Below, piece after piece: positions 2,019 through 31,620 of a stretch of DNA of 32,237 bases. The stretch spans positions 1 through 32,237 of the forward strand of contig SUWC01000035.1 in NCBI GenBank assembly GCA_015061665.1, written 5' to 3'. A model generated the notes under the pieces. The model did not search any database, was not told the DNA's origin, and was given only the letters and a program-made list of their open reading frames with translations. The position numbers and the translations under genes are program-made. Positions within the stretch are counted from its first letter, which is position 1. Each line of letters opens with the position of its first letter. This stretch comes from Lentisphaerota bacterium. Its GTDB lineage: Bacteria > Verrucomicrobiota > Kiritimatiellia > RFP12 > UBA1067.

Positions 2019-3386
2019 TTATTGTTTTCCCGTCATGAAGTAGCCCAGCATGATGCGACCGATGATCTGCTTGCCAAGCTCGCCGGAGTGGACAAAGTCG
2101 CGGCTGTAGTACTGGTTGGGCAGCCCCGAACCATAAAGCCACGTGTAGCAAGGCAAGAACTCGTCCCACCACTGCATCCTGTTCGCCGAGCAGAGCTTCT
2201 TCAGCGCTCCGTATTCCGTCTCCATCTCGCGCATCCTGAACTGCGACGGACCGAACGGCATCTTCGGAACCGGCGCGGCGGGATTCGCCTCGTCGTACGG
2301 ACGCGTATCGACGGAAAGCGGCGAATTGACGAGCAGAACTTCGCAACCGAGGCGTTCGCGGGCGACCTTCGCTACGCGCACCATCGCGTCCGCGCCGGTC
2401 GGACCAACGTCCTTCCCGCCTTTCTCGTCGTGTTTCCTGTTGTTGGAGATGCCGCCGATTATCAGGAGGTCTGGCTTGTGGTCTACAACGTAAGGATAAA
2501 AGTTCTCGGCGAGAATGTAGTGCCAGCAGCCCGTCCCGCCGCGCATAGAAAGTATCCACTCGACGTTTGACTGCGGAAACTCGCGCTTGACGAGCGCGTG
2601 GAACTGCGAGTGGAACGTATCCTGTATGATCGAATCGCCGAGCATCACGATGCGCCACGGCTTGCCGGTCTTGAGCGCATCCATAGTGCGGGGGAGAAGA
2701 GCAGTCCAGTCGCCTTCCGGCGCAAAGTCGAGCGGCGCTTTCGCCGCGACCTCGCCGTAGATGCGATCGGCATACTCCGCCGCGTCCTCCCATGTCGCCG
2801 TCTCGATCTTGACGTTCGACACCTCCAGAGTGCACTTGTCGCCGTTCTTCTCGTTCATCTGCCACGGCTTCTGGAAGAACACCTCCAAGGTGTCCACCTC
2901 GTCCCATGCATACAAAACCCTCTCATAATGCCTCGCCGCGACTTCCCCTGCCTCTTCACTTTCAACTTTACACTTTACACTTTCAACTTTCGCTGGATAC
3001 AGCGTATCATAGCAGTCGGGCAAGACCTTTCCCTGCTTGTCGTAGAAGAACACTCCCTGGTTGCAACGCTGCGGCTTGCCGCCCGGAACGCCGGGAGTGA
3101 AGACGTACTTGCAGTCGAATGAGAACTTGAAGTACGCGCCCTTCCCCTGCTCCTTGTGCGGAAGGCGAAGCTTCTTCGTCGTAAGCCGCCCTTTAGCCGT
3201 CTCGGACATCTCCACCGCGTCGAACTTCGCGCAGACGCGGTCGTTGTCGGTGAACGTCACGTTCCCGAACCTGAATCCCGGCGTCTTGTCCGTGACCGGA
3301 CCCTTCGCCTCGAATATCGTCTCGGCGTTCGCCGTGACTGCAACGGCAACCGCTGCCGCAAGAATTATTACGCATCTAGTTCTCAT
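2019..3386 (-). CDS. Secreted SGNH/GDSL-type esterase (with N-terminal accessory region)
   Basis: The 455-residue protein starts with the shared signal-peptide cassette (MRTRCVIILAAA). A roughly 200-residue N-terminal region of probable beta-sandwich type follows, then an SGNH hydrolase domain. That domain has GDSI with Ser252, G-G-I-S-N for the oxyanion-hole Asn, and D-F-V-H with Asp430 and His433. Such enzymes usually remove acyl (often acetyl) groups from polysaccharides. I chose the ATG at 3386: its A-T-G-A overlaps the stop of the upstream esterase, and AAGGA lies nine nt before it. The longer open frame has no such support. An in-frame low-complexity insert (2955-2992) reads KVESVKCKVESEE. 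A near-identical but broken copy lies at 31185-31388. The substrate is unknown. Confidence 0.82.
   Translation of the reverse strand: MRTRCVIILAAAVAVAVTANAETIFEAKGPVTDKTPGFRFGNVTFTDNDRVCAKFDAVEMSETAKGRLTTKKLRLPHKEQGKGAYFKFSFDCKYVFTPGVPGGKPQRCNQGVFFYDKQGKVLPDCYDTLYPAKVESVKCKVESEEAGEVAARHYERVLYAWDEVDTLEVFFQKPWQMNEKNGDKCTLEVSNVKIETATWEDAAEYADRIYGEVAAKAPLDFAPEGDWTALLPRTMDALKTGKPWRIVMLGDSIIQDTFHSQFHALVKREFPQSNVEWILSMRGGTGCWHYILAENFYPYVVDHKPDLLIIGGISNNRKHDEKGGKDVGPTGADAMVRVAKVARERLGCEVLLVNSPLSVDTRPYDEANPAAPVPKMPFGPSQFRMREMETEYGALKKLCSANRMQWWDEFLPCYTWLYGSGLPNQYYSRDFVHSGELGKQIIGRIMLGYFMTGKQ
2955..2992 (-). repeat. In-frame degenerate repeat of the GAAAGTT/GTAAAGT family inside the SGNH esterase
   Basis: Units such as AAAGTTGAAAGTGTAAAGTG repeat imperfectly and are translated as KVESVKCKVESEE. 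The stretch is far more AT-rich than the gene around it. The same family occurs in the six-hairpin glycosidase and in two intergenic gaps of this window. Confidence 0.75.
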
Positions 3387-4216
3387 TTTGGATTTTCCTT
3401 GTGCTGCTCTGACGAGCGGATTGCATTCTTCTCGCAACTTTGTTCATCGCAGGACATCCGACGAAGAATCGCCTTTTCAATCAGTTCGTGTCCTGCATTG
3501 TTGGGATGCAGCATGTCGCGCTCCTCGTTGCTGAAAAAGCGCGAGTGAGACTTCAGCATCGGAAACAGACCCGATTCGGCATTCAGATCAATCACATTCA
3601 CCGCCCAGACGTTGCCGACCTCCTTCACTGCGGCAACGTAGTCGTCTATGAACAATCCGATTCCATTGGAATGCGATTCGTCCGGCTGAACATTCCCCGG
3701 GCCAAACGCCGCATACCCTCTGTGGATTGGCGTCATGACATAGATGGGCGTTCCCGGATAGTCGTCCTTAAGGCGGTTCATTACCTTGTTTATGCGCCCT
3801 CTTAAAGTCTCGTCGCCGAAAACGAACGAACGGCACTTCACGACTGTTGTGCCCTTCTTGCCGCGATCGACTTCTTTTTCCGCAACCGAAAACCATTCCC
3901 CTAGGGGAACGTCCGAATTGTAGTCGTTCGTCCCCGCAAAGACGAATATCGCCGAAATCCCCTGCGGATGCTCCCTCTTCAGAAGCTCGGCCTGGTGGAA
4001 AACCCCTGACCACTGAGCTCCGTTGCGTCCGTAGACAAGTGGGATTACGCCGACATCCCGCTCAAGGTAGTTCCAGTAATTTGACGTGCAGCCGATGTGG
4101 TTTTTGTCAGTGATCGAATCGCCGAGAAACGCCACTTTCGCCCCGGCGAACACACCGCCATCCGCGGCAACCGACAGCAACGCCGCCGCAAGAATTGTTC
4201 CGCATTTAATTCCCAT
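3383..4216 (-). CDS. Secreted SGNH/GDSL hydrolase (short form)
   Basis: This 277-residue GDSL_2-like esterase begins with the shared signal-peptide cassette (MGIKCGTILAAALLS). The catalytic blocks are complete: G-D-S-I-T with Ser34, F-A-G-T-N-D with Asn97, and D-M-L-H-P-N with Asp234 and His237. It is likely a secreted carbohydrate deacylase, though lysophospholipase or thioesterase activity cannot be excluded. The start at 4216 has AGGAGA upstream and lies 11 nt inside the end of the six-hairpin glycosidase gene. Its stop overlaps the next esterase by ATGA, so the three genes are probably translationally coupled. It is not closely similar to the second esterase apart from the leader, which argues against simple tandem duplication. 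Confidence 0.83.
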   Translation of the reverse strand: MGIKCGTILAAALLSVAADGGVFAGAKVAFLGDSITDKNHIGCTSNYWNYLERDVGVIPLVYGRNGAQWSGVFHQAELLKREHPQGISAIFVFAGTNDYNSDVPLGEWFSVAEKEVDRGKKGTTVVKCRSFVFGDETLRGRINKVMNRLKDDYPGTPIYVMTPIHRGYAAFGPGNVQPDESHSNGIGLFIDDYVAAVKEVGNVWAVNVIDLNAESGLFPMLKSHSRFFSNEERDMLHPNNAGHELIEKAILRRMSCDEQSCEKNAIRSSEQHKENPK

Positions 4217-6404
4217 TTGTTTCTCCTGTCAATGTTATAGAAAGCAGATTACGCCCTTCGCGCAACTTCGCCCAAGGAATGAAGTTGCTCGAAATTGTTT
4301 CTCCATTAAGCGCATAGCTGGCGCTTGTTCCAATGCCCGACATTTCCACGTCGAGCGTTTTGCCACGAAGAGAAAGTCCGCGCACGGCAAACGGCCTCCC
4401 GTCGTTCATTGGATTGAACCGGGCGCCGTCTTTCGAGGCACGAATCCCAAGCCAAAGATCGAGCGCGTCAGAAAGCCATCCCTTTGCTGCAAAGAACTGC
4501 TTGTTGCCAAGCTCGTCGGAATAGTCCGCCGGATCGCCGTTCATTACGTCGGCGGTCTGTCCTTCGGGATAGGTCAAGACGCGGGAGTGACGTGAGACGA
4601 TGTTCCTGAAGTCGGCTATCGCATCAACGCGCCCCGCCGCGTTCATGGCGTTCCAGTACGTGCGATCCGTGACGGGATAATAGGAGCCGAGCTGGTTGCC
4701 GTCCGTGCACCACGACTTCGTTCGCCATCCGAACATGACGAGCCTGTCGCCCATAAAGAACTCGCGCTTTAGATAGTCTGCTGTCGTTTCCTTCGAGAAG
4801 CCCTTTGCGTCGCTATATATGTCGCGTCCGAACGGCGAGACGTGGAAAAAGCCGTAAAGCGGATAATGCTCGCGACGACACCCGTTTGCAACGTCCCACG
4901 AATCTGCCCACCAGCCTTTCTCCGCATTCCAGAGTTTGGCGGCAACGGCCTTGCCGATGGACTCTATATCCTCTGTACCCTCACCGGAAAGTTCACGCCA
5001 CGCGCAAAGCCCCTGCCAGTACACTGCGCAGTTGATAAGCGCGATGTCGTCTTTCTGCTGGTCCACCGCATACGGGTTGTCGGGATAATAGCTATACTTG
5101 TGGGGAAGAAGATCGGAAGCATCAACAGACGCCTTCGCACGTTCGACGAGCTTTCTCGCAAAGCCCATGCACTCCGCCTTGAACGCCTCGTCGCCTGTTG
5201 CGTTTACGTAGTCGTTGAGCAGAACAACCCAGAAAAGCTGCACCGTCGGCGGCATAGTGTACGATTGCCCCGGCTTGTCGCTACCCTTGCCCTCGAACTT
5301 GAAAGCCGTTCCGTAGGCATGAAGAATGCCGGCCTCCTCGCTCGCGGTGTCGCGGAAAAACGACAACATCCTCTTCACCTCCGCCGCGCGTCCGCAGAAT
5401 GCAAGTGTCCCCGCATGAACCATCGCGTCCCATCCCCACACCCAATACGTAGGAGAGGCTCGAAAAGCGCCGATGCCGTCCACTTCATGCGCCGCGCTCA
5501 TCGGCGCGACATATCCTAGCCAACCGTCCACCATGGCATCGCCGGTCTCGAAACGGGCGTCCTCAGCGTGGCGTTTGCGGAAGTCCGCGAAAACGCGCTC
5601 GACTCTCGCTTCGGAAAGTTCTTCGCCATCCTTCCTGTCGAACACCCACCAGAATAGATGCTTGTCGCCCGGCTCCATCTCGTCCATGTTGAAGCGGAAG
5701 TTAGGCCGGTGGTCGCCGTTCCTGTAGGCGAGCGGCTGCGGTGGACGGTCGTTCAGCGGAAAGGAAACGGGGTTTGCGGACCCTATCTCCATCGTCACCC
5801 GCTCCCCGCCATCGAATTCCGCCTCGGCGACAAGCCGGCTCACGCATCCTGCAACTTTATACTTTACATTCTCAACATTCAACTTTCCACTTTCAACTCT
5901 CCACTTGGCCCCCTGCCCCATTCCGGCCTGCATCTGCACGATTCTGCAGCGGACAGACTTCTTCTGCGGATTTTCGATGACTATTATCCGGCGGAACACG
6001 GCATTCCCATCGAGGACGAACTCATGACGCAGCTTCACGTCCTCGATCACGCACTCACTCGCGTAGCCGAACGGATAGTGGACGGTGTTCTCGAACGTCA
6101 GCCGATACGGAACGTCGTCTATCAGAACATACGGCGCGAAACCGTGCATCCAGTGGCAGTTCTCTGCGGCGGATCGATAGAAGTTCTGCTTGTGGTATGG
6201 CTGCGAACCGACATAGTTCAGCTCAAAAAGCCCGGCTATGTCGGACACCTTCGCGGAGATGCGTCCCGACTGGTAGAAGTTGCGCCTGACGCCGAAGCCT
6301 TCGCGGGCAAACGGCAGCCCCTCCGCGTCAAATCCGTCGATCGCCGCAACAGTGCAAAAAGGCAGCGTCAGCAAGGCAAGAATTATTCCGCAAATTGTTC
6401 TCAT
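4206..6404 (-). CDS. Secreted six-hairpin (alpha/alpha)6 glycoside hydrolase
   Basis: The 732-residue protein has the cassette signal peptide (MRTICGIILALL), an N-terminal beta-sandwich region (about 30-280) and a large helical domain. The helical domain carries YWVWGWDAMVHAGTLAF near residue 320, a motif typical of six-hairpin glycosidases (GH63/GH37/GH78-like and MGH1-like). Late motifs such as TDGNQLGSYYPVTDRTYWN fit the same fold. A short C-terminal beta domain follows. The exact family and linkage cannot be set from sequence reading alone. The start at 6404 has AGGAAGGG upstream. Residues around 175-190 (WRVESGKLNVENVKYKV) come from an in-frame degenerate repeat at 5851-5906. The gene overlaps the downstream esterase by 11 nt. 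Confidence 0.75.
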   Translation of the reverse strand: MRTICGIILALLTLPFCTVAAIDGFDAEGLPFAREGFGVRRNFYQSGRISAKVSDIAGLFELNYVGSQPYHKQNFYRSAAENCHWMHGFAPYVLIDDVPYRLTFENTVHYPFGYASECVIEDVKLRHEFVLDGNAVFRRIIVIENPQKKSVRCRIVQMQAGMGQGAKWRVESGKLNVENVKYKVAGCVSRLVAEAEFDGGERVTMEIGSANPVSFPLNDRPPQPLAYRNGDHRPNFRFNMDEMEPGDKHLFWWVFDRKDGEELSEARVERVFADFRKRHAEDARFETGDAMVDGWLGYVAPMSAAHEVDGIGAFRASPTYWVWGWDAMVHAGTLAFCGRAAEVKRMLSFFRDTASEEAGILHAYGTAFKFEGKGSDKPGQSYTMPPTVQLFWVVLLNDYVNATGDEAFKAECMGFARKLVERAKASVDASDLLPHKYSYYPDNPYAVDQQKDDIALINCAVYWQGLCAWRELSGEGTEDIESIGKAVAAKLWNAEKGWWADSWDVANGCRREHYPLYGFFHVSPFGRDIYSDAKGFSKETTADYLKREFFMGDRLVMFGWRTKSWCTDGNQLGSYYPVTDRTYWNAMNAAGRVDAIADFRNIVSRHSRVLTYPEGQTADVMNGDPADYSDELGNKQFFAAKGWLSDALDLWLGIRASKDGARFNPMNDGRPFAVRGLSLRGKTLDVEMSGIGTSASYALNGETISSNFIPWAKLREGRNLLSITLTGETNGN
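5851..5906 (-). repeat. In-frame degenerate GAAAGTT/GTAAAGT-family repeat inside the six-hairpin glycosidase
   Basis: Imperfect copies of GAAAGTT, GAATGTT and GTAAAGT are translated as RVESGKLNVENVKYKV. The stretch is AT-rich in a GC-rich gene and related to the repeats at 2955-2992, 6455-6492 and 18516-18544. Confidence 0.72.
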
Positions 6405-6493
6405 TTAGCCCTTCCTCATATTCTCCGTTTCGGCGCGCTCGGTGATCGCGCCCTACCTTTCAACTTTTCAACCTTTCAACTTTTCAACTTTAT
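6405..6493 (-). other. Operon gap with hairpin and GTTGAAAAGTTGAAAGG repeat
   Basis: The 89-nt gap between the FAD oxidoreductase and the six-hairpin glycosidase holds three items. Tandem TTGAAAAG/TTGAAAGG units lie at 6455-6492. A GC hairpin lies at 6432-6452, with a 6-bp GGCGCG/CGCGCC stem and a 9-nt loop. The ribosome-binding site of the next gene follows. There is no T-run after the hairpin, so it may stabilise mRNA rather than terminate it. Confidence 0.6.
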
Positions 6494-8338
6494 TCAGTAC
6501 ACCTCAAACGAGAAGACCCTTTGTTCCGTAGTCTCACCCCAAGGGCGAGTCCAGACAACGCGGCAGGCATCACCTGCAATCGGCATATCAAATCGAAGGT
6601 CCAGCCAGCGGCGATAGTTGTCGCGGACAACCTTGACTGTTTTCCACTCACCCCCCGATCTTACCTGTACATTGAAGTCACGCGGCATCTCGTCGGGAAG
6701 CCGCCGCGCTTTCTTGGGTCCTATCCACCAGACGAGCCAGCGGTTGTCGTTCATATTCGTGTCGACGACGAGGCGGACTCCCGAAAACGTCGCTGGACTG
6801 TCGAATGAATATTCCGTAGTCTCGCCGGGCTTGAGCCATGCACCGTGTCCGCCGTCGAGTCTTATCCTGTCCATGCCGTCGCGCAGGACTTCATGCGAAA
6901 TGCGCCCTTTCTTTGAAAGCGCCGTTATCTTCCTGTCGCGCCACGGAATGAACTGGTCCTGCCACTGGAGCGTGTCCTGGAGTTCGGCAAGATGATTCTT
7001 GTACACACCGCGCGGCGTCGTATTCTCTCGCACCGCAATCGCCGCCGCAGTACCGACGGCCTGCCCCATCACGGCGCACGTCGCCTGGACTCGCGTGGAC
7101 GAAAGCGCCATGTGCGTGGCGGAAATGTCGCGTCCGGCGAACATAAGGTTCTCAACGTTCTTCGAATAGAGAGAGCGGTACGGAATGCCATAGACTTTCG
7201 GACAGGGGTTGAATACTGTCTGCTTCGGCGCGTACAAGCCCGAAGAGTAATGGTCGTCCATCGGCCAGCCGCCGTGCCCGATGTTGTCCCTGAACGCCTT
7301 TCCCTCGGCGAGAAGGTCGTTCTGGGTGAGGATATGGTCGCCGATGAATCGGATCGACTCGCGCTTCCCGGGGAGGGACGAGACGAACGTCCTCTCCCAG
7401 ATGCGGCCCTTTGCATCGCGCCCGTCTTTGAGAACGCCCTTCTCCATCTCCCACTGTCCGTACGACCAGCGGAAAAGCTCGTCGCGTATATGGCTCGCCG
7501 CCTCTATCGTGTTGGTCTCACCACCCCATTCAAGCGATCCGCACGTCCAATAGCAGTCGCGCGAGCCGTCGAACGTATCGTTGCCGCGCTTGTATCCGTC
7601 GTACGGCCTTGCCGTTTCGGGCGTCGCCAGCGGCTCTGCGGCTACGCCGGTAGGCTCCTTGAATACATTAAGCGTCGACCCCATCACGGTGAGGTTCCCC
7701 TCCTCCGGCGCATACGACTCGCCGAAGTCGCGCCGGCTCTCGCGGCCCTTCATCCACTCGGCACCGGAAAGCCGTAGTATCCCGTCGCCCGAGCAATCGA
7801 TGAATATCTTTGCCGCGACGGTGACGCGCGTGTAGCTGATTGAATCCCAGCCCGTCACTGAGACGATGCGGCTGCCGTTCGTCGCGCATTCCATGACGGA
7901 CGTATTCAGCAAAACCGTAAGATTCGGTTCCCTTGCGCAGAAGTTCCAGAGGACATGATCCCAGACCTGCCAGCTGCAAGACGGGTTTCTGTATATGTTC
8001 TCGAGGCGAATCTCCTCGATAAGCCCGCCCTCGCGGTTCTCGAGAACCTTGCCGTTCGGCAGCACGTCGCCGTATGCGCCGCTCACTGGGACGCGGATCT
8101 CGCTCGACGCATTGCCGCCGAGCATGGGCCTGTCCTGCACAAGGACGACCTTCGCGCCGTTCCGCGCCGCCGCCACGCTCGCGCATATCCCGGCCATGCC
8201 GCCTCCGACTACGCACACCTCCGTCTCGTACGTCTTCTTCGCGACCGTCGGTTCGGTCGCCTCGGTATGCACTTCCGCGCCGTACGCGGCAAACACCATC
8301 ACTTCAGCCGCGAGAATTGTTCTACAAAGGGTTCTCAT
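6494..8338 (-). CDS. Secreted FAD-dependent oxidoreductase (FAD_oxidored family) with C-terminal beta-sandwich
   Basis: The 614-residue protein has the cassette signal peptide (MRTLCRTILAAEV). The Rossmann dinucleotide motif is V-V-G-G-G-M-A-G (Gly45, Gly47, Gly50), followed by LGGNASSEIRVPVSG, a hallmark of the FAD_oxidored family. Later motifs include FAGRDISATHMALSSTRVQ and C-A-V-M-G-Q-A-V-G. The last 110 residues look like an F5/8-type C (discoidin-like) sandwich, as often found in carbohydrate-active proteins. Family members occur widely in polysaccharide loci of planctomycetes, Verrucomicrobia and Lentisphaerae, but their substrate is usually unknown. The start at 8338 overlaps the upstream stop by ATGA and has GAGGAG upstream. 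How FAD reaches an exported protein is unclear; Tat export is not indicated, as there is no twin Arg. Confidence 0.82.
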   Translation of the reverse strand: MRTLCRTILAAEVMVFAAYGAEVHTEATEPTVAKKTYETEVCVVGGGMAGICASVAAARNGAKVVLVQDRPMLGGNASSEIRVPVSGAYGDVLPNGKVLENREGGLIEEIRLENIYRNPSCSWQVWDHVLWNFCAREPNLTVLLNTSVMECATNGSRIVSVTGWDSISYTRVTVAAKIFIDCSGDGILRLSGAEWMKGRESRRDFGESYAPEEGNLTVMGSTLNVFKEPTGVAAEPLATPETARPYDGYKRGNDTFDGSRDCYWTCGSLEWGGETNTIEAASHIRDELFRWSYGQWEMEKGVLKDGRDAKGRIWERTFVSSLPGKRESIRFIGDHILTQNDLLAEGKAFRDNIGHGGWPMDDHYSSGLYAPKQTVFNPCPKVYGIPYRSLYSKNVENLMFAGRDISATHMALSSTRVQATCAVMGQAVGTAAAIAVRENTTPRGVYKNHLAELQDTLQWQDQFIPWRDRKITALSKKGRISHEVLRDGMDRIRLDGGHGAWLKPGETTEYSFDSPATFSGVRLVVDTNMNDNRWLVWWIGPKKARRLPDEMPRDFNVQVRSGGEWKTVKVVRDNYRRWLDLRFDMPIAGDACRVVWTRPWGETTEQRVFSFEVY

Positions 8339-11010
8339 TTAGTCTCCTCAATGTCATAGACTCGGACGTAATCGACCAGAAACTCGTCGCCGGACGCCAC
8401 AGCAGCTTCAAGTTCGGGGACGCCCTTGCCGGTCATGTGATCGTTGCGGTACCACTTCGCCTCGGTCGTAAGCAATATGAATTCCTCCGTCTGCGAGACG
8501 GCTTCCCCTTCGCCCTGACCGACCTTCGGCCCGTGCTGGCGTCCGTCGATGTAGAGCGTGTAGCCGTCAGGCTCCCAGAGCATCCCGAACGTGTGGAACT
8601 GCGTCTTGTCGAGTTTGTAGATCGCGTCCTCGTTCTTCTTGACGCGTGGACATCTGAAGCCAAGATAGTCCGCGCCGTAGCCGTTGGCGTGGAAGCAGTG
8701 CGGAACCACCTCGCCGGGGTCGAACGACTCCATGATGTCGTGTTCGATTCCGGCACGGCGCGGATCGAGCGAACACCCCTGCATAGGGGTCTGCATCCAG
8801 AACGCCGACCACCATCCCGGCAGCTGCTGTAGACGACAGCGGCATTCGTAGTATCCGTAGCGGTGCATGAACTTCGGCTTCTCGCGTTTCGGAATCGGCC
8901 AGAAGCCCTTCGGGTTCTCCTGATGCGGGACATCCCAGACAAGTTCGCCCGTCTGCAGCTGCGGCGAGACGAACTGTCCGTCCGCGCGCTTGACGAGCTT
9001 CAGATGCAGAAGCCCGTCCTTCACATCCACCGCGCCGTCTTCGGGCGTTGCGAACCAGTGCGCGCGTCTGCCCCAGAAGTTCGTCCGGTAGCTCCACTTG
9101 GATTCATCCAGCCTATCACCGTCAAACTCGTCGTTCCAGACGAGGCTGAATTTCCTCCCCTTGGGCAGAAGCGACGGCTCGCGTCCCTCCACCGCCGAAA
9201 CGCACTCGCATGTCGCAGTGGAATCCACGTCGAGCCTGACGGAGAATATCCTGTCTGCGTATCGGCGGACAGCATCCCCGAGGCCTTCGCGATGCGTGGC
9301 TCCGCTATGCCCCGGCCGCTTGACGTAGAACGGGTATTCGTCGCGGAAAAGAGAGGCGCAGTCCGGACGTTCCGCCTTGAGCGCGTAGAAGTCGGCCCAG
9401 GCGCGGTCGTAGTCCGCCGCTGCTCTGGAAATCAACGCCCTGTCCGGCTCGCATCCGCGTTTCTCCGCCTCGTAGCCCTTGAAGATGACCGTGCATCCGT
9501 GCAGCATGATGCGATGCAGGATCTCGCCGTAGCGCGCCGACGTCGAGAGATATGAGGCAACGGCCTCATCGGAGGCACGTATACCGCCGGCGAGCCCGAC
9601 GATCTCCTTCCAGATGCAGACAGCCTCGGCCATCTCTCCGAGACGGGCGTCCAGCAGTCCATCCGCGATCAGACCGTCCATCGTCTTGCGCAGCTCGTCT
9701 ATCCCGCCGAGGCAGTCGTCTCGCATCCAGCCGACGAAGAGCCAGTTGTCCGGCTCTTTCATGTACGCCGGGAGCGCATCCCCGCAGAGAAGCATCGTTC
9801 CCCGGCCTCGGATGATCGCCTTCTGCGACAGCAGACACAGTCTGCGGAAGTCCGCCAGCGATTCGGGCGCGATGCCGGACTTCTCCGCAAACGACCGGAA
9901 CGCGGTCTCCTCGCCGTCTTCAGGATGCCTGGCCCAGCGCGACAGGACGTATGCGTTCATGTCGCACCAGAACTCGTTGCGCAGATAGGGCCCCTGTCCG
10001 CCGCCGCCGCGGCTCCAGGTCCACACGCCCGCGAAAAGCGGCGACTTGGCGAACTCCGCGAGGCACTTCATTCCTGCGTCGCCCGCGTTCTCCTCGAATC
10101 CATCTATCACGGACTGGCCGATGTAGTTGGGGAAGGCGCCCTTTCCCTCGTACTCGCGCGCGCACTGCACCTCGACGATCTGCCTGTGTCGCCCGATGCC
10201 GAGAGTGGGGTTGAAGCGGAACGTACGCAAGTAGTCGCCCTTCGTGTGCTTGACAGCCATGACGAGGTTCGTGTGCGGCTCGACGCGCTCCGTGACGTCA
10301 AGGTAGTAGTCGGGGCGCGTGTGGAAGAAGCCGAAGTCCCATGTGCGGTAATAGACCTGCTTGCCGCGCTTGACGCAGACCTCGTCGCGCAGGAGATTCA
10401 TCAGCGCGGCGTGGATTCCCTTCGACTCCTCGTATGCGTTCTTGTAGTCTACGGGGCCGTTCCCCGTGTGGTAGGGGGTGTTGTTCAGATAGGTCTCGCC
10501 TGTGCGCACTACGAGCCCATCAAGTTCCGGCACCACCTCGAACAGCTCGTCGAGCATGATGCGGTGCAGCTTCCTCGTCAGCGGCCTGGAGAAGGATATG
10601 CGCCCGTCTGGGCCGCACACATCGTCGCGGTACAGTTCGACAAGCCGCTTCGGAAAGACGATTATGTCCATGAAGTAGTAGCACTTCAGCCCTGCGGCAT
10701 GGCACTTGCGGCACTTTTCGCGCATCCGGTCCCTTGCTGCCATGACCCACGCGCGCTCTGGGGAGCCTTCCGGGAATACGCGCCTGTCGAAGGAGTCAAA
10801 CGTGACGGCGCACTGCGGAAACACAAACTCGTTGACGACCATCGCATCGTAGCCGTACGACGCGAGCGTGCCGGGGTCTGTGAATGCGGTCCTCGTGAAA
10901 GGTTCGCCGGGGTTGTGGTGAACCATGTCCATAACCTCGGCGCGCGATTCCGCGCCATGCACGGAAAGCGCCATCGCCGCCGCAAGAATTGTTCCGCACA
11001 GGATTCTCAT
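8335..11010 (-). CDS. Two-domain secreted glycosidase: TIM-barrel-like region fused to a GH16 domain
   Basis: This 891-residue protein starts with the cassette signal peptide (MRILCGTILAAAM). Residues about 30-610 look like a (beta/alpha)8 glycosidase-like region, with helical parts after it; I do not recognise its family. From about residue 618 the start of GH16 is clear (F-S-L-V-W-N-D-E-F-D-G). The GH16 catalytic E-x-D-x-x-E is intact as Glu756, Asp758 and Glu761 in GIEHDIMES. GH16 enzymes cut beta-1,3/1,4-glucans or galactans. The gene overlaps both neighbours by ATGA. The join of an unassigned barrel with GH16 in one polypeptide suggests stepwise attack on one glycan. The GH16 assignment is firm; the N-terminal one is not. 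Confidence 0.83.
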   Translation of the reverse strand: MRILCGTILAAAMALSVHGAESRAEVMDMVHHNPGEPFTRTAFTDPGTLASYGYDAMVVNEFVFPQCAVTFDSFDRRVFPEGSPERAWVMAARDRMREKCRKCHAAGLKCYYFMDIIVFPKRLVELYRDDVCGPDGRISFSRPLTRKLHRIMLDELFEVVPELDGLVVRTGETYLNNTPYHTGNGPVDYKNAYEESKGIHAALMNLLRDEVCVKRGKQVYYRTWDFGFFHTRPDYYLDVTERVEPHTNLVMAVKHTKGDYLRTFRFNPTLGIGRHRQIVEVQCAREYEGKGAFPNYIGQSVIDGFEENAGDAGMKCLAEFAKSPLFAGVWTWSRGGGGQGPYLRNEFWCDMNAYVLSRWARHPEDGEETAFRSFAEKSGIAPESLADFRRLCLLSQKAIIRGRGTMLLCGDALPAYMKEPDNWLFVGWMRDDCLGGIDELRKTMDGLIADGLLDARLGEMAEAVCIWKEIVGLAGGIRASDEAVASYLSTSARYGEILHRIMLHGCTVIFKGYEAEKRGCEPDRALISRAAADYDRAWADFYALKAERPDCASLFRDEYPFYVKRPGHSGATHREGLGDAVRRYADRIFSVRLDVDSTATCECVSAVEGREPSLLPKGRKFSLVWNDEFDGDRLDESKWSYRTNFWGRRAHWFATPEDGAVDVKDGLLHLKLVKRADGQFVSPQLQTGELVWDVPHQENPKGFWPIPKREKPKFMHRYGYYECRCRLQQLPGWWSAFWMQTPMQGCSLDPRRAGIEHDIMESFDPGEVVPHCFHANGYGADYLGFRCPRVKKNEDAIYKLDKTQFHTFGMLWEPDGYTLYIDGRQHGPKVGQGEGEAVSQTEEFILLTTEAKWYRNDHMTGKGVPELEAAVASGDEFLVDYVRVYDIEETK

Positions 11011-12800
11011 TTCAGGAGTCCCTTTCTCAAAACGTCAAAATCATCCGCCGTCATTGGCGTGGGACCTGAAAACTCGTCGTCGTTCATCTCGAAGAGGTTT
11101 CCAACATGGACAGGAACGCCGAGTCTGCGTGCCGAGCCGAGCCATTCGGCGAATGTCGTCCTGCATCCGAAATGCTGCATGTCATAGACAGGCAATACGC
11201 CAGGCGCCGTCGCCATAAGCATCCTGGCGCGGTTCTCGTGTTCGCGAGGGTTGTCTCCGGCAACATCGTACGTCCTGTTGAGATCCATGTACTCCGCAAG
11301 GAACCAGTTGCCGGCGCATCCGCAGTGCTGCGCGTCCGGCTTGTATTTCCGCATCTCAGACGTAAAAAGCACATAGAGCCGACGGAAGTAGTTTTCCTCG
11401 CCACGCCATGCGGGGTCTTGTGCAGGAAGGTCAAAATGTATCTTGTCGGCCTGGTAGTCGGTCTTAACGCCGTCAAGGTCGTAGCATCCCGGCTCAGAAG
11501 AGAAAAGCCTCCGCATTGTCGGCTTCAGCCATTCCTCCTGCGCAGACTTCTTGGAAAAGTCGGCCATCCATCGCCCATGGCAGTTGCGCTTCCCTTCAAG
11601 CATCGTGTTGTGGCGTCCAATCGCCTTTTCGCAGTTCTCGTCGCGGCATTCGCTCCACGTCCACCACACCATCACCTTGAAGCCCATCGCATGAAGCCGG
11701 TCGACCATCCCCCTGAAATCGGGGAACCGCGACGGATCGGCGCGGAAGTCCATCGTGTTCAGCATCCACCCGCCGTCGATGAGAATTGTGCGTATAGGCA
11801 GTCTTTCGCGCTTGATGCGTTCCGCCGCGTCCATCACCATCTTCTCGTTCAGCACTAGCCAGCTCTTGCCGCGTATAGATGGATTCGCAAGCGACTGTTT
11901 CTTGAGGTCTGCATCGGGGATGTATCCCGAAAGAAGCATCTGGTCGCCCCATGTGCAGTAGTAGTGTTCGCTATGCCACGGAACGGCCTTGCGCTTTGAC
12001 GGATCGGCAATCTTGCCGTCCGTGGCGAGGTCTTCCGCAAAAAGCCGCCACGACGCATGCACGTCGCCGCCACGATCAAACGCAAAGTAGAACTCCGGCG
12101 ACTTCCAGGTCTCGCCCGCCTTCATCCCCCAGCCCCATTCTCCGTCACCGTAGTGAAGATAGAATCCGGAAAGAATCCACTTCCCACCCTGCGCATATAG
12201 CCCGTACCCGCCGACCGGCGCTTCGGTCGTTCCGACAAGCAGATGCGCGTCGTTTCGGGTAAAAAGCATCGCACTCGGATGAGGCGCAAACTGCCAGTCC
12301 TTGGAATACGTATTGCAGGCAAACTCCCGCGCCCCGAGCACAACACGCTCGAACACCTGATCTGTCGCGTGCTGGTTGCGGTAGTTGTTGATTTCGTAGA
12401 AGAGTGTCTTCGTACCCGACGGGAGGATTTCGAGGCGGTTCATGATCACGTCTTCGTCCGGAACGAACTCACCCTTGACGAGAAAACCTCTGCGATGGGG
12501 CGTTGCCGTCACAATGCCGCGCCCGAGCTTCACGCTCTTGAACTCAAGCCGCACCACGCCGCCCTCGCCAACCGTCTTCGCGATGAGCGCGGCATCCTTC
12601 GCGAAGTCCGGCAGCATCAGTCGCGCCTCGGGAATAGAGAAAAGTTTTTCGCCACGCGCAGAATCGACCAGCACGAGTGCCCCGTCCGGCTGGCACTTGA
12701 ATGCGACTGCGGCGGCATCGCCCCCGGCCTCGCACCGCTCGTCACCGAACGCGTTCAGAGCGAACACCGCCGCAAGAATTGCTCCGCACCGTAATCTCAT
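11007..12800 (-). CDS. Secreted GH36/GH31-clan alpha-galactosidase-like enzyme
   Basis: From the cassette ATG at 12800 (MRLRCGAILAAVF) the product has 597 residues. An N-terminal beta-sandwich is followed by a TIM barrel with I-D-G-G-W near residue 341, the phrase RFPDFRGMVDRLHAMGFKV typical of GH36-type barrels, and G-V-K-T-D-Y with Asp448 in the nucleophile position. The late motif APGVLPVYDMQHFGC also fits a retaining alpha-glycosidase barrel. Alpha-galactosidase activity is the most likely reading, but other GH-D clan activities are possible. The longer open frame starts inside the upstream MurQ-like gene and lacks support. The ATG used lies eight nt after that gene's stop. The 3' end overlaps the next gene by ATGA. 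Confidence 0.74.
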   Translation of the reverse strand: MRLRCGAILAAVFALNAFGDERCEAGGDAAAVAFKCQPDGALVLVDSARGEKLFSIPEARLMLPDFAKDAALIAKTVGEGGVVRLEFKSVKLGRGIVTATPHRRGFLVKGEFVPDEDVIMNRLEILPSGTKTLFYEINNYRNQHATDQVFERVVLGAREFACNTYSKDWQFAPHPSAMLFTRNDAHLLVGTTEAPVGGYGLYAQGGKWILSGFYLHYGDGEWGWGMKAGETWKSPEFYFAFDRGGDVHASWRLFAEDLATDGKIADPSKRKAVPWHSEHYYCTWGDQMLLSGYIPDADLKKQSLANPSIRGKSWLVLNEKMVMDAAERIKRERLPIRTILIDGGWMLNTMDFRADPSRFPDFRGMVDRLHAMGFKVMVWWTWSECRDENCEKAIGRHNTMLEGKRNCHGRWMADFSKKSAQEEWLKPTMRRLFSSEPGCYDLDGVKTDYQADKIHFDLPAQDPAWRGEENYFRRLYVLFTSEMRKYKPDAQHCGCAGNWFLAEYMDLNRTYDVAGDNPREHENRARMLMATAPGVLPVYDMQHFGCRTTFAEWLGSARRLGVPVHVGNLFEMNDDEFSGPTPMTADDFDVLRKGLLK

Positions 12801-12808
12801 TTGGCTTT

Positions 12809-14566
12809 TCACTTTTCGTTGTTCCTTTGTATTGCGGCAAGCGCAACCTGGACTGGCGACGGCTCCTCCTTCTGCGTCCAGTCCTGCGAATTGATCCATT
12901 CCTGCGCAGCGAAGACCGTTTCCGCCGCTGTCACGTAATCGACGCGGCCAAGCTCCACGACAAGCCGGATGCTGCGGTCAATCAGCTTCTTGTTGCTCAT
13001 CGACACGTAGCTCATCCAGTTCCCTGCAACGCGTCCCATTGCCGCCATCGTGCCAGTCGAAAGGCAGTTGAACGCAAGCTTCACTGCAAGGTGCTTCCAT
13101 ATTTCAAGTGGCGAGTCGGCTATAGGGAATTCGAAGCGGAACTCCAACTTTTCCGGCCATGAGGCGGCAAGACGATTCGCGGCACCTACGAAATCATGCG
13201 TCTCGCCAGGAACGCGCAGCACAACCGCCGCCGCGCGAGCAAAGCCCTCGATGCGCTCGGGCGCGGGTTCGTTGCCGATCATGTAGGTGACGAGGTTGGA
13301 ATACTTGATGGCAGGAGGATTGTCAATGAATGTCTGCGGCATTCCAAGGGAGCGGGCGTCGTCTGCCGTGAAGTCAAGGCAACGCGGATGTCGGCGCATC
13401 ATCTCACTCCAGCATTCTTCCGTTGAGTGGAGTGGGTTCTTGACGAATGCCCACGACTGCGCAAGGCCTTTCTCTTGGCTGGAGCGGATCGGCGGAATCA
13501 TGAACGTAGGCGCACGCTCCGTGTTGTCGGTGAAGAGATCGAGCATACACTTGTCGGCAATGTACGTGATACGCCCGCCCGCCTCATAGACTCCCTTCTC
13601 GAACTCGATTGCCTTTACGAGCCCGGCGCGGCCTTCCGGCGATTCAAGCCCCGCAAGAAGATTCTCGAACAACTGCGCATAGTCTTCCGTCGTCTCTTTC
13701 GCGAAGCGCGGCAGCACGCGGCAGAGAGCCGCTTCAAGGGCGCAGGAGCAAAGCACCTGCTCGGAACTCGTCGCCTGCATCCGCGTAGAACCGGCAACGG
13801 ACATTGACCCGCAGTAGAGGTCGATCACCGTAACCTTCGGATTGTCTATCGCCTCGCGACAACGGTCGAGGTGCCTGCGCAGGAGGTAGGCTGGATTGTT
13901 GAAGACGAGAAAACACTTTGCGCCGTGTTCGGTGGCATACATGAGCGAACCCAAGACGGATGATGTTTCGCCACCCTCGGTGATTGCGACAAAGGTATCT
14001 CCTTCGCCAACATCAAGCGCAGAGGCCTGGCGACGACCACCTTCCGCAAAGTCCTCGAAGAACTCGACGGAGCGGATGAGCGCGAAGTCGCCGCCTGTCA
14101 TGATGGACGCCGAGCGATCGGCAAGTGCGCGTTCCTTGTCCGACAGTTCTGCTACGCGGCGATGGAAGAAGTCACGCCACATAGATTCAAGGAGAATCGA
14201 AAGACGCCCTGTCGCACCGCAGCCTGAGAATATGATACGTCCCTTGGGACCTGTCACGGACGCTACCATGGAATCGACGAGCGCGGCAAATCTTCGCCCA
14301 GCGAAGATATGGCGCATCGTGATCGGCATCTGCCTGTCGCCACGCTGCAGACACTGAACACCCGCAAGCGTGGAACGCTTGAAGTCGTCCTCAAGTGTCG
14401 CCGTTATGGGATTCGACTGCTCGGTCGGCAGAAAGCCCAGCTGAAACTGCTTCTCGTTGTCGATAAAGCTGCGAGCCTTGGCCTTCGCCGAGTCTGAGCA
14501 TCGGAATGCACCACTGAAAGATGTCGCCTCAGCATCAGCGCACAGGCATATGTTTTTTGTTTTCAT
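12809..14566 (-). CDS. MurQ/GckR-like double-SIS sugar-phosphate protein (cytoplasmic)
   Basis: The product resembles MurQ etherases: LPTEQSNPITATLEDD near the start, GRIIFSGCGATGRLS, FVAITEGGETSSVLGSL, G-S-T-R-M-Q-A-T-S and the C-terminal AFNCLSTGTMAAMGRVAGNW. At about 585 residues it is nearly twice MurQ length and probably has two SIS domains, as in GckR. The MurQ catalytic Glu, found in an A-S-E motif after the G-R-L, is not at the same place (an L-L-E-S-M sequence follows instead), so etherase activity is uncertain. It has no signal peptide and is the one clearly cytoplasmic protein in the locus. It could process or sense an imported amino-sugar phosphate. I prefer the ATG at 14566, seven nt after a TATAAT box, over the ATG at 14575. 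Confidence 0.75.
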   Translation of the reverse strand: MKTKNICLCADAEATSFSGAFRCSDSAKAKARSFIDNEKQFQLGFLPTEQSNPITATLEDDFKRSTLAGVQCLQRGDRQMPITMRHIFAGRRFAALVDSMVASVTGPKGRIIFSGCGATGRLSILLESMWRDFFHRRVAELSDKERALADRSASIMTGGDFALIRSVEFFEDFAEGGRRQASALDVGEGDTFVAITEGGETSSVLGSLMYATEHGAKCFLVFNNPAYLLRRHLDRCREAIDNPKVTVIDLYCGSMSVAGSTRMQATSSEQVLCSCALEAALCRVLPRFAKETTEDYAQLFENLLAGLESPEGRAGLVKAIEFEKGVYEAGGRITYIADKCMLDLFTDNTERAPTFMIPPIRSSQEKGLAQSWAFVKNPLHSTEECWSEMMRRHPRCLDFTADDARSLGMPQTFIDNPPAIKYSNLVTYMIGNEPAPERIEGFARAAAVVLRVPGETHDFVGAANRLAASWPEKLEFRFEFPIADSPLEIWKHLAVKLAFNCLSTGTMAAMGRVAGNWMSYVSMSNKKLIDRSIRLVVELGRVDYVTAAETVFAAQEWINSQDWTQKEEPSPVQVALAAIQRNNEK

Positions 14567-14573
14567 ATTGCAC

Positions 14574-14579
14574 ATTATA
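14574..14579 (-). promoter_or_regulatory. -10 box (TATAAT) of the MurQ-like gene, leaderless spacing
   Basis: A perfect TATAAT stands 7 nt before the ATG at 14566, with the spacer GTGCAAT. The ATPase promoter at 1910 has the matching ATGCAAC spacer. I see no convincing -35 box, so an activator may be needed. It would give the downstream half of the locus its own promoter. Confidence 0.45.
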
Positions 14580-14612
14580 CTATTCCCTGCTTGGTGTTGA
14601 CGAACTGGACAT

Positions 14613-14672
14613 TCAGACCTTAGACCAACGGACGACCGCCGCAGCGAGAATTGTTTCGCATGCTGTTCTCAT
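14613..14672 (-). other. Orphan copy of the signal-peptide cassette (19-codon mini-ORF)
   Basis: The sequence encodes MRTACETILAAAVVRWSKV and then a TGA stop. The first 12 codons match the cassette that begins six nearby secreted-protein genes, but no gene follows. AAAGGA lies 11 nt before its ATG. It sits between the stop of the 1256-residue enzyme gene and the MurQ-like gene. It is either the stub of a deleted gene or a leader peptide upstream of the MurQ-like gene. Confidence 0.7.
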
Positions 14673-14738
14673 TTTACCGGCAGTCCTTTTTATCATTTCA
14701 TTAATATGGGCAGCATATCAATGACATTTTGGCGAGTT

Positions 14739-20541: not shown

Positions 20542-22497
20542 TTACCTAACGAAGATCATCAGTCCGGCGTTTGACGCAAAGAACTCGTAGCAGCCGATAT
20601 CGACGATGGCCGCGTCGTCCACCTTGTCATCGGGGTTGATGCGAAGGTTTTTCCCGCCAAGGTCAACGGCCGTCGCCGTCATCCAGTCGCGGTTCACGCC
20701 CGCGTTGCGCAGAATGCTTCCCTTTGACGGCATCAGGTCACCCGCCGCATAGTCGGCAAAGAGGTCTGCTGTTGTTAGGGATGTATTGACAATGTTGCCG
20801 TTCGCGCCATCAGCAAGCAGCGCGTAGGTTGACGTGGCGTTTTCGAAGCAGTTGGTGCAGCCATTGCGGATAACCCCCTTCTTGCTACTGTTTGCAGGGC
20901 ATGGCAAGTTCCTCGTCTCGTCACCGACCTTGTTGTCGAGAAAGGCGCAATTCACTATCGCCCAGCCATCTATTGAATCTGTCATGGCGCCAATTCCTCC
21001 CGCTTGGTATCCATTCGTCGCCGTTCGGCATGTGTTCCCCGCGAACGTGCAGCTTTCCACAACGGTCGGATACGCCGTCTTGCTGTCCCGAAAAAGCGCC
21101 GATGCCCGCCCCGACGCGCTTTCGTTTATGTTCGTGAGAAACAGGCAGTTCCGCACAAGGGTGTTGACGCCGGACATTCCAAGCATAGCGCCGAGATCCC
21201 CGGCATAGGAGTCCATCGTATGGTTCCCCTCGAAACGGCAGTTGATGGCGGAGCTATTGGCGTTGAGTTCCGCACAGCAGTAGTCGCCGCCGGAGATGTT
21301 GCGGAAGAAGGTGCAGCGCTCCATCGTCAAAACACGAGCGTAGAGAACGTATCCACCGCCTGCCGTGTTCCCCTCAAACTCGCAGTCGTAGGCAAATATC
21401 GTACGGAGCGAGGATGTGTTGCTCGTGTAGTGAGCCGCGACGGCCCCTTGTCCGGAGGAAACGTTAGCACGGAACGTGCAGTTGGAAAAGGTAAAAACGG
21501 GAGTGCTGCTCGAATTGCTCAGGCCCGACGCAACCACGCCACCATGCGCAGCAGAGTTGGCGGTAAAGGAGCATCCAACAAAGTCGTATGGTGTCCCCAC
21601 GTCATTTGCGACAATCCATACGCCGCCGTCCTCGCCCTCCGTTGCGGAGTTGCGGGCGAAGGTGCAACCTATGGCGAAGACGCCGCCGCCGGACCCCGCA
21701 CGTGCCAGATTATCCTTGAACACGCATTTCTCCAGAACCACGCGGCGCGATCCGTCTGTGGCATTGTTGCGACCGCGAAGGGCGACGGAGTTGCAGCGGC
21801 GGAACTCGCAATTCCGGAACGTAACGTTGCCGACCGAACAATCCGCCACGACGCCGCCGGCATACCCCCCCGAACAGTCCTCAAACACGCAGTGATCGAC
21901 AGTATCGCCAGAAGCGGCGTAAAGCGCCCCGCCACTCTGGTATAACCTGGCACTGGTGCTGGTGTTCGAGTTCGTGCAGGCACGGAACACAAGGTTCGTG
22001 AAGAGGTTGTTGCCGGCTGTGGTAATCGGGACGGGGGTACTCTCGTTCGAGCCGACCAATATGCCCGAAGCGGAAGTGTAGCTGGTATTTCGGATTGTGA
22101 AGTTCGCGAAGGTGAGTCCTGTCGCCCCCTTCACGACAAAGGCGCGGCACGAGCCCTGTCCGTCGATCACCACATCCGCCGCCGTATCGCCGTCGCCTAC
22201 GAAAGAAAGGTCGTTCTTCGTGACAGTCGTTCCGCTTGCGAGCGCATAAACGCCCGGTGCGATGTGAATCGTGTCGCCATCCGATGCCAGAGCATGCGCC
22301 TTTGAGATGGTTGCGACTGGGGCAGCCTCGCTTCCGGCTGCGGTATCTACGCCGTTAGTGGCGACGTACCAGTCTGTCGCCTGTGCGCCGAGCGCGGCGA
22401 AGAGCGCGACAGTCGCGGCAAATGCGGCGCGGCGTGACGGAATGCAAGCAGCAGCACAGTGCACTATTCTGCCGATTTTCATCTTGTTGACCCACAT
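20542..22497 (-). CDS. Secreted right-handed parallel beta-helix protein
   Basis: The 651-residue product has a long signal peptide ending near A-L-G-A-Q-A-T-D. WYVATNGVDTAAGSEAAPVA and D-G-D-T-I-H-I-A-P-G-V-Y come next, the standard entry of DUF1565-type beta-helices. Repeated coils of the form N-C-x-F-x-x-N-x-A/S run to about residue 600, and the end reads V-D-I-G-C-Y-E. Such proteins include polysaccharide lyases and large surface adhesins; I see no catalytic motif that decides. I use the ATG at 22497 with GGAGG six nt upstream. The longer frame would start at a GTG at 22533 without a ribosome-binding site. It is the first gene of the main unit, and its promoter lies at 22562-22591. Confidence 0.8.
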   Translation of the reverse strand: MWVNKMKIGRIVHCAAACIPSRRAAFAATVALFAALGAQATDWYVATNGVDTAAGSEAAPVATISKAHALASDGDTIHIAPGVYALASGTTVTKNDLSFVGDGDTAADVVIDGQGSCRAFVVKGATGLTFANFTIRNTSYTSASGILVGSNESTPVPITTAGNNLFTNLVFRACTNSNTSTSARLYQSGGALYAASGDTVDHCVFEDCSGGYAGGVVADCSVGNVTFRNCEFRRCNSVALRGRNNATDGSRRVVLEKCVFKDNLARAGSGGGVFAIGCTFARNSATEGEDGGVWIVANDVGTPYDFVGCSFTANSAAHGGVVASGLSNSSSTPVFTFSNCTFRANVSSGQGAVAAHYTSNTSSLRTIFAYDCEFEGNTAGGGYVLYARVLTMERCTFFRNISGGDYCCAELNANSSAINCRFEGNHTMDSYAGDLGAMLGMSGVNTLVRNCLFLTNINESASGRASALFRDSKTAYPTVVESCTFAGNTCRTATNGYQAGGIGAMTDSIDGWAIVNCAFLDNKVGDETRNLPCPANSSKKGVIRNGCTNCFENATSTYALLADGANGNIVNTSLTTADLFADYAAGDLMPSKGSILRNAGVNRDWMTATAVDLGGKNLRINPDDKVDDAAIVDIGCYEFFASNAGLMIFVR

Positions 22498-22532
22498 ATC
22501 ATACCTCCATTTTTGTGCAAAACTACATTTCA

Positions 22533-22550
22533 CCCTGCAACCAAGCAGGG
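22533..22550 (-). other. Stem-loop in the 5' UTR of the beta-helix operon
   Basis: CCCTGC and GCAGGG form a 6-bp stem with a 6-nt loop. It would lie just inside the transcript from the 22562 promoter, about 35 nt before the start codon. The function is unknown; mRNA stability or regulation is possible. Confidence 0.45.
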
Positions 22551-31142: not shown

Positions 31143-31184
31143 AACATGGCGGTTGCCGCACGGGATTTCGATTTCAGTTCTCAG

Positions 31185-31388
31185 TCATTTTCCCGTAAGG
31201 AAATAGCCCAGCATCACGCGACCGATGATCTGCTTGCCGTATTCGCCGGAATGGACAAAGTCGCGGCTGTAGTACTGGTTCGGCAGCCCCGAACCGTAAA
31301 GCCACGTGTAGCACGGCACGAACTCGTACTTCGCGTCGAACGAGAACTTGAAGTACGCGCCTTTGCCGGTCTCCTTGTGCCACGCAGG
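31185..31388 (-). pseudogene. SGNH esterase remnant with internal deletion
   Basis: The last 46 codons (F-V-P-C-Y-T-W-L-Y to the stop) match the end of the esterase at 2019-3386 almost residue for residue, including D-F-V-H. They are fused to H-K-E-T-G-K-G-A-Y-F-K-F-S-F-D-A-K-Y, which in the intact gene lies about 290 residues earlier. The central catalytic part with G-D-S is missing, and nothing recognisable lies upstream of the first segment. The joint falls at a CGT shared by both source regions (31325-31327). A palindromic element begins just upstream in gene direction (31402). Confidence 0.85.
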
Positions 31389-31401
31389 TGGCATTCGTGT
31401 C

Positions 31402-31522
31402 TTGGCGGGCGGCGGAACTCGCAGGGTTGAAGCAGAGACTTGACGACGGGCCAGGCGAAGCCTGAGGCCCGGCGGCAAGGCGATGGTTCAAATCGCGCTT
31501 GCGCGATTCGCCGCCCGGCCAA
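31402..31522. mobile_element. Palindromic 121-bp element with 13/14-nt terminal inverted repeats
   Basis: The left end TTGGCGGGCGGCG (31402-31414) is the reverse complement of the right end (31509-31522) apart from one extra base. Inside are a long hairpin (GGGCCAGGC, loop GAA, GCCTGAGGCCC) and the palindrome AATCGCGC-TT-GCGCGATT. No open frame is credible. It fits a MITE/REP-like element or a structured RNA. Confidence 0.5.
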
Positions 31523-31620
31523 GGTTCGTGGTCGCGCGCCAGCGCCAAGCAAACATGCCGGCATGGGTCATGCAGAGACTATTGCCTCTGCAGCTCTTCG
31601 CGAACTCGATTCGCAAAAAG
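31523..31620. other. Short gap with further inverted repeats downstream of the permease gene
   Basis: It contains the perfect palindrome CATGCCGGCATG (31554-31565), a 7-bp stem TGCAGAG/CTCTGCA (31571-31592) and GCGAA/TTCGC (31600-31614). None is followed by a T-run in the sense of the permease transcript, so a simple terminator is not supported. Confidence 0.45.

Follow-up and report, generated by a model that had tools for sequence, protein, structure and literature searches.

A piece of DNA of ~36 nt provides the start codon and the first part of the export tag for unrelated secreted enzymes in the Lentisphaerota genome studied here (we refer to this piece as the leader), and we consider it probable, at roughly 60%, that the end of an X-type repeat was co-opted to serve as both start codon and N-terminus of the signal peptide, and then spread by leader recombination. 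X is a multi-copy gene family bordered by copies of an intergenic hairpin repeat to which the leader is related. The window, the whole stretch of DNA that was analysed, is one entire contig (C79, 32,237 nt) of genome G000, a 3.44-Mb, 92%-complete draft in 177 contigs, the other genomes and loci used in comparisons are also drafts and partly binned. Our literature search turned up no paper describing a module of this kind for the group.

Leader copies in the window, the genome and the order

Seven leader copies lie on the same strand inside 11.3 kb of the window (Table 1). The first-pass annotation had described six of these, and their starts are as it reported, with AATTCT(T/C)GC invariant, codons 6 and 7 ending in A, ATT at codon 8 and, in all but one of the six, AGA as second codon, its count was however incomplete, as a seventh copy was found at 14672 (-). 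The enzyme starting at 12800, which it had named GH36-like, is assigned by Pfam to a GH31-type barrel (PF01055). At 3386, 4216, 8338 and 11010 the stop codon of the upstream gene falls within the leader, whose ATGA or TAA context closes the upstream open-reading frame neatly and thus suits operon-like arrays. The esterase at 3386 has a leader-bearing orthologue in genome G126, and the G131 homologue of the 6404 glycosidase is followed by a different leader gene.

Two further observations concern other parts of the contig. Near its other end, fragments of the esterase at 2019-3386 occur at 31174-31564 (-), with an internal deletion and a C-terminal 46 aa that are 91% identical, apparently a leaderless pseudogene copy. 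Beta-helix/autotransporter-like proteins encoded at window 20542-22533 (-), in L040 near 2507 (-) and in L232:1964-3745 (-) have the C-termini GLMIFVR, GLMLFVR or GFKLIIR, which form a possible sorting signal.

Table 1 Leader copies and associated genes (positions in the window unless a locus is named), with two examples of family X.
Feature	Position	Strand	Remarks
Leader copy 1 (AA + ATG to codon 12), MRTRCVIILAAA	3351..3388	(-)	R1 E 3.9e-8
Secreted SGNH-type esterase, leader 1	2019..3386	(-)	No Pfam match; SGNH by inference
Leader copy 2, MGIKCGTILAAA	4181..4218	(-)	R1 E 5.0e-9
GDSL lipase/esterase	3383..4216	(-)	Pfam; stop (TAA) of upstream gene within the 4216 leader
Leader copy 3, MRTICGIILALL	6369..6406	(-)	R1 E 1.1e-7
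Six-hairpin-type glycosidase	4206..6404	(-)	No Pfam match
Leader copy 4, MRTLCRTILAAE	8303..8340	(-)	R1 E 1.0e-7
FAD-dependent oxidoreductase	6494..8338	(-)	Pfam FAD_oxidored, PF12831
Leader copy 5, MRILCGTILAAA, nearest to consensus	10975..11012	(-)	R1 E 5.2e-11
GH16 fusion protein	8335..11010	(-)	Pfam GH16
Leader copy 6, MRLRCGAILAAV	12765..12802	(-)	5' arm GAGATT pairing with TTCTT lost
Glycosidase, GH31-type barrel	11007..12800	(-)	Pfam PF01055
Leader copy 7, orphan	14637..14674	(-)	R1 E 1.9e-8
Orphan leader ORF, 19 codons, MRTACETILAAAVVRWSKV-stop	14613..14672	(-)	No enzyme behind
Cytosolic SIS/GKRP-type gene	12809-14575		Preceded by orphan leader ORF 14613-14672
X examples	L232:540-1469 and L195:1521-2465	(-)	Core WLxEN.PEL..KYKTLMRYKA

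The profile search of the genome and its relatives that the earlier annotation had proposed was made with R1, a sequence-only model of 39 columns built solely from coding leaders. It detected 17 copies in G000 at E ≤ 0.001 (19 with two start-less relics): C79 holds seven of these, C158 five and C49 three, and C139 and C167 have a single copy each, below this threshold were the start-less relics on C65 (E 0.0014 and 0.003) and a fourth copy on C49 (0.01). Searching G000 with a specific pattern gave 19 matches, against 0 for a reversed-pattern control. Across the order, 46 of 162 genomes matched R1, with up to 18 often clustered copies each, whilst 289 genomes sampled evenly across the phylum gave no match outside the order. 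A phage origin of the leader and X was considered and rejected, as neither was found in IMG/VR. Start-less relics (MVATLKKMILCGTVLAAL, MLRIQTLTCGTILAAAF) are carried by L121:1-4856 (G000 C65) and L119:7467-12332 (G008 C35), which come from different species yet have 99.4% identity along the full contig, a sign of recent transfer or mis-binning.

In an alignment of 68 copies that stand before different bodies and come from several genera, conservation extends from −3 to about codon 12. Mean information per base was 0.99 bits (−3 to −1), 1.11 (+4 to +12), 1.51 (+13 to +30) and 1.10 (+31 to +36), absolute values that are inflated within the 39 scored columns because the copies were chosen by score, using a model built from the first copies. 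Upstream of −12 it was 0.13 bits, and after codon 12 it dropped to 0.37 bits (+37 to +48) and then to 0.15–0.23 bits (0.23 at +49 to +66). This sharp stop, for which the first-pass annotation had proposed a test, falls midway through the hydrophobic region, where there is no signal-peptide boundary. By eye, the translations appear to have the layout of a Sec signal peptide, with a basic n-region, a hydrophobic h-region and an AxA-type c-region, for example MRTRCVIILAAAVAVAVTANA-E.

The bodies behind the leader belong to unrelated families, as had been claimed: a scan of 40 leader proteins returned 45 Pfam families, none present in more than four members, and among 42 bodies compared only eight homologous pairs were seen. 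Most are secreted glycosidases and esterases, with an RND efflux adaptor, an FAD oxidoreductase and a lipoprotein also represented. Nor are the leader bases common to the signal peptides of this genome at large. In 57 other secreted-type genes of G000, the third base is A in 25% of cases at codon 6 and 18% at codon 7, and GGA accounts for 4 of 25 Gly codons at positions 4–10, the leader bases therefore reflect neither codon bias nor ordinary signal-peptide usage. The one sign that lost its meaning in this comparison is AGA at codon 2, which the earlier annotation had treated as special, and which makes up five of the seven Arg2 codons among these other genes.

Inheritance of leaders and bodies

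Two leaders taken from unrelated genes agree at 24.7 ± 2.6 of 33 bases. Pairs with orthologous bodies share 24, 27, 26, 21, 25, 28, 29 and 26 of 33, so that most fall inside the range of unrelated pairs despite their far closer bodies. The esterase at 3386 and its G126 orthologue, for example, are 86–90% identical as proteins, yet their leaders share 24 of 33 bases, the level of a chance pair. Only at very close or unshuffled loci is more of the leader kept, and vertical retention is seen in some close orthologue pairs (L108/L159 and L153/L157). The RND adaptor (C158) carries the leader in G000 and in the more distant G121 (85% protein identity), whilst its orthologues in G099 (94%) and G129 (93%) are without it and have the N-termini MKHVVLIAVVCG and MQSLKSCLSMIAACG. 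Three fucosidase loci share the same 700 upstream bases (92–94% identity), one of these matches the leader of the second and the hydrophobic region of the third.

Blast comparison of the flanks revealed many pairs of loci that are homologous up to the leader on one side only; as gene shuffling also breaks at gene boundaries, such one-sided homologies are by themselves weak evidence. Joins inside genes go beyond what shuffling at boundaries produces. In L115 the leader precedes just the second half of a protein whose L103 form has two domains and 942 aa, in L112 it is fused to an internal fragment of an L040-type gene, and in six orphans the leader breaks off within codons 8–16, with non-coding or out-of-frame DNA following.

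Two observations were made beside these. Orthologous orphan leader ORFs of 20 codons, MRILCGTILAAAVAGACVKP-stop and MRTLCGTILAAAVAGACAKP-stop, are kept in two species at L104:1854 (-) and L201:3141 (-), with an intergenic repeat behind them. A second intergenic repeat, CGAAGCGGCTGTTTCCGGGCGGG-GCTGAAA, lies upstream of the leaders at L039:8675, L040:606, L198:2342 and L199:8247 and also occurs in L150; we rejected CGAAGCGGCTGTTTCCGGGCGGG as part of the module, it precedes only some leaders and is missing from the window.

The intergenic hairpin repeat and gene family X

Scattered between genes in this genus and in related genera is a hairpin repeat of ~28–30 nt, AAATGAGAATTNTATGCGGAAAAWTCTTG, with the stem GAGAATT/AATTCTT and the loop NNATGCGGAA, occurring as single, tandem or inverted copies. 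Such repeats are found in many genomes of the order; R1 picks them up with E-values between 5e-5 and 1e-3 (in G076, G112, G004, G141 and others), and they match its columns 2–31 only. The leader is identical to the ATC-TTG form of the repeat at 25 of 28 bases, the main change being AAA to ACA at codon 7, after which the leader continues with GCGGCG. Read in frame, the repeat encodes M-R-I-L-C-G-K-I/F-L and the leader M-R-T-L-C-G-T-I-L-A, the constant Cys5-Gly6 thus being the loop TGCGGA. An ORF of 90 or more codons is begun by 4 of 50 AAA-type (Lys7) and 43 of 53 ACA-type (Thr7) copies, counts from loci that were partly chosen by the coding model.

Folded as single-stranded DNA and compared with shuffles, intergenic repeats had z-scores of −2.4, −3.4, −4.4 and −5.4, and the g26 copy −1.1, whilst coding leaders ranged from −0.7 to 0 and formed no stable hairpin. 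In the X ends, stem bases pair at 91.7% in register vs. 60% or less when slid. Covariation in these stems amounted to one compensated pair, which is not above shuffles, owing to a sequence set that is too uniform for this test. No clean empty site or target-site duplication was found among the loci examined. G000 itself holds just two intergenic repeats, one on C98 and one on C100, the C100 copy lying ~70 nt from a contig end.

Copies of the same hairpin border X genes (300–490 aa, with a conserved core at residues 110–241): one outward-reading copy lies 15–60 nt upstream and a second ~1.25 kb away, in direct or, as in L195/L252, inverted orientation. X occurs in 60 of the 162 genomes of the order, with a maximum of 14 copies per genome, and like other repeats it is often located at contig ends. 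It had no Pfam, NCBIfam or PHROG match and no convincing sequence relative in the PDB, and a structure model confident in the core only (pLDDT 73, pTM 0.50) gave no fold match in the PDB or BFVD; no X was seen in IMG/VR. With this result, and with stem covariation that was not significant, X would be a transposase only by circumstance. Of the 46 genomes with the leader or repeat, 32 also have X (Fisher p = 2e-7 across the order and p = 6e-4 inside the genus, in both cases ignoring phylogeny). No homologue of X was found in G000 by sequence or profile, which is weak evidence for the absence of a multi-copy gene from a 92%-complete draft. Y1/RAYT transposases were tried as a partner of the leader and rejected, 20 Y1 (PF01797) loci being without a flanking repeat; five such Y1-type genes are in G000 itself (C168, C71, C4, C24 and C177; L212-L216), none of them repeat-flanked.

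Origin of the leader and comparison with known systems

The first-pass annotation had suggested a mobile or gene-converted 5' module, or a shared control element in the coding region, rather than convergent signal peptides, and the evidence supports the module and speaks against convergence: the leader is homologous to a hairpin repeat, is not co-inherited with the bodies, is fused to gene fragments and occurs as orphans, and its edges over 68 copies and the different bases of the 57 other secreted genes speak against convergence. Under our preferred explanation, exaptation of an X-type repeat end, an outward-reading end would once have contributed an ATG together with a short n-region of positive charge and the beginning of a hydrophobic stretch. 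Replacement of Lys7 by Thr, Ile or Ala would then have made this end usable as a signal-peptide start, a signal peptide needing the loss of lysine from the future hydrophobic region. The coding version would have spread by recombination at the leader, which either replaced 5' ends or shuffled leader-plus-gene units within clusters of secreted enzymes, and the mover may be the X machinery or host homologous recombination. We infer the direction of descent as from repeat to leader. Little of the hairpin survives in the coding leader, and it is therefore doubtful that an enzyme recognising hairpins could move the leader directly; a further point against an X-type origin is that G000 has no detectable X and only the two intergenic repeats.

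Considerably less probable, in our view, is that X and its hairpin ends form an undescribed mobile system in which the coding end variant is a recombination site within the start of the signal peptide, secreted-enzyme genes being captured and shuffled as cassettes and exported once joined to it. An integron-like process, with the leader as an active site-specific recombination site that brings leader-plus-gene cassettes into tandem same-strand arrays, is tentative to the same degree. The seven same-strand copies in 11.3 kb fit such arrays, as does the frequent upstream stop (ATGA or TAA) in the leader, and a locus in G121 is arranged as expected after a Campbell-type insertion: one upstream-plus-leader segment is present on both sides of a GH28 gene (98% identity over 62 nt), the body of which matches G000 7383 and its upstream sequence G000 8675. 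RecA-mediated recombination over ~100 nt would however give the same picture, no recombinase was identified near the arrays in a search that left IntI outside its scope, and the coding leader is without a stable hairpin.

Selection on RNA is an unlikely primary cause. Here the 5' coding bases would bind a small RNA, an RNA-binding protein or the ribosome, and the leader genes would be a co-regulated regulon; they are indeed clustered and largely of one functional class, and codons 6 and 7 retain A as third base in 18 of the 19 cases in which they encode a non-consensus amino acid. Selection on the bases themselves would produce such retention, but so would a recent common origin of the copies at the DNA level. 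The hairpin, a conceivable control element, is weak or gone in coding copies, and selection at the RNA level leaves unexplained the match to intergenic hairpins, the orphans, the fusions to fragments and the leaderless orthologues at 93–94% identity. An additional regulatory role of the shared coding bases is possible alongside exaptation. Far less credible is descent of whole genes, by which the enzymes would be duplicates of one secreted ancestor with only the leader still recognisable: the eight homologous pairs of bodies are in its favour, yet unrelated families stand behind near-identical leaders, conservation at the DNA level gives way to near-random sequence from codon 13 onward, and orthologues of the same enzymes carry other N-termini. 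Convergent signal peptides combined with AT-rich codon bias near starts can be dismissed almost entirely, for although Sec signal peptides are generally alike and AGA is a common Arg2 codon in other genes too, the leader bases are not those of the 57 other signal-peptide genes, the control pattern gave 0 matches vs. 19 and no genome outside the order matched.

Exaptation of a repeat end would be a route for one genome to give unrelated enzymes an export tag: an end that differs by a few point changes from its intergenic form starts dozens of genes and is exchanged independently of their bodies. It allows tests, within one clade, of how signal peptides originate and rapidly turn over, and it exposes X as an abundant, order-wide, unannotated family with hairpin ends which may be a new kind of mobile element.

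Several known systems share features with the leader and its repeat. Integron arrays resemble it in their tandem, same-strand, unrelated genes and in a conserved separator whose relatives fold into a hairpin, but here the conserved sequence is itself coding. REP/RAYT systems similarly combine short, often clustered hairpin repeats between genes with an associated protein-coding gene; REPs do not typically serve as coding sequence, X has no Y1 match and the Y1 loci examined here are not repeat-flanked. The nearest known systems are palindromic amphipathic repeat coding sequences (PARCELs; PMC2996958), in-frame MITEs and Rickettsia palindromic elements (both PMC10969869). PARCELs are also palindromic coding DNA repeats found across unrelated surface proteins (PMC2996958), but as intragenic tandem repeats, whereas the leader is a single N-terminal module. 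MITEs and solo IS ends are short, cannot move autonomously and reproduce the ends of a longer element that is itself present in many copies, as X with its bordering hairpins would be, and MITEs are known to form in-frame fusions (PMC10969869); the repeat here is much shorter, and X, lacking any Pfam, NCBIfam, PHROG, PDB or BFVD match, is not a known transposase. Rickettsia palindromic elements (Ogata et al. 2000), as far as they are described in a MITE review (PMC10969869), are likewise interspersed palindromic repeats that lie in frame in many unrelated genes, as the leader does in front of 68 bodies, and encode a conserved peptide. By the same account these elements are ~100–150 bp long and lie inside gene bodies, whereas the leader is a module of ~30 nt at the gene start, from the start codon to codon ~12, which gives the start codon and n-region and is linked to X.
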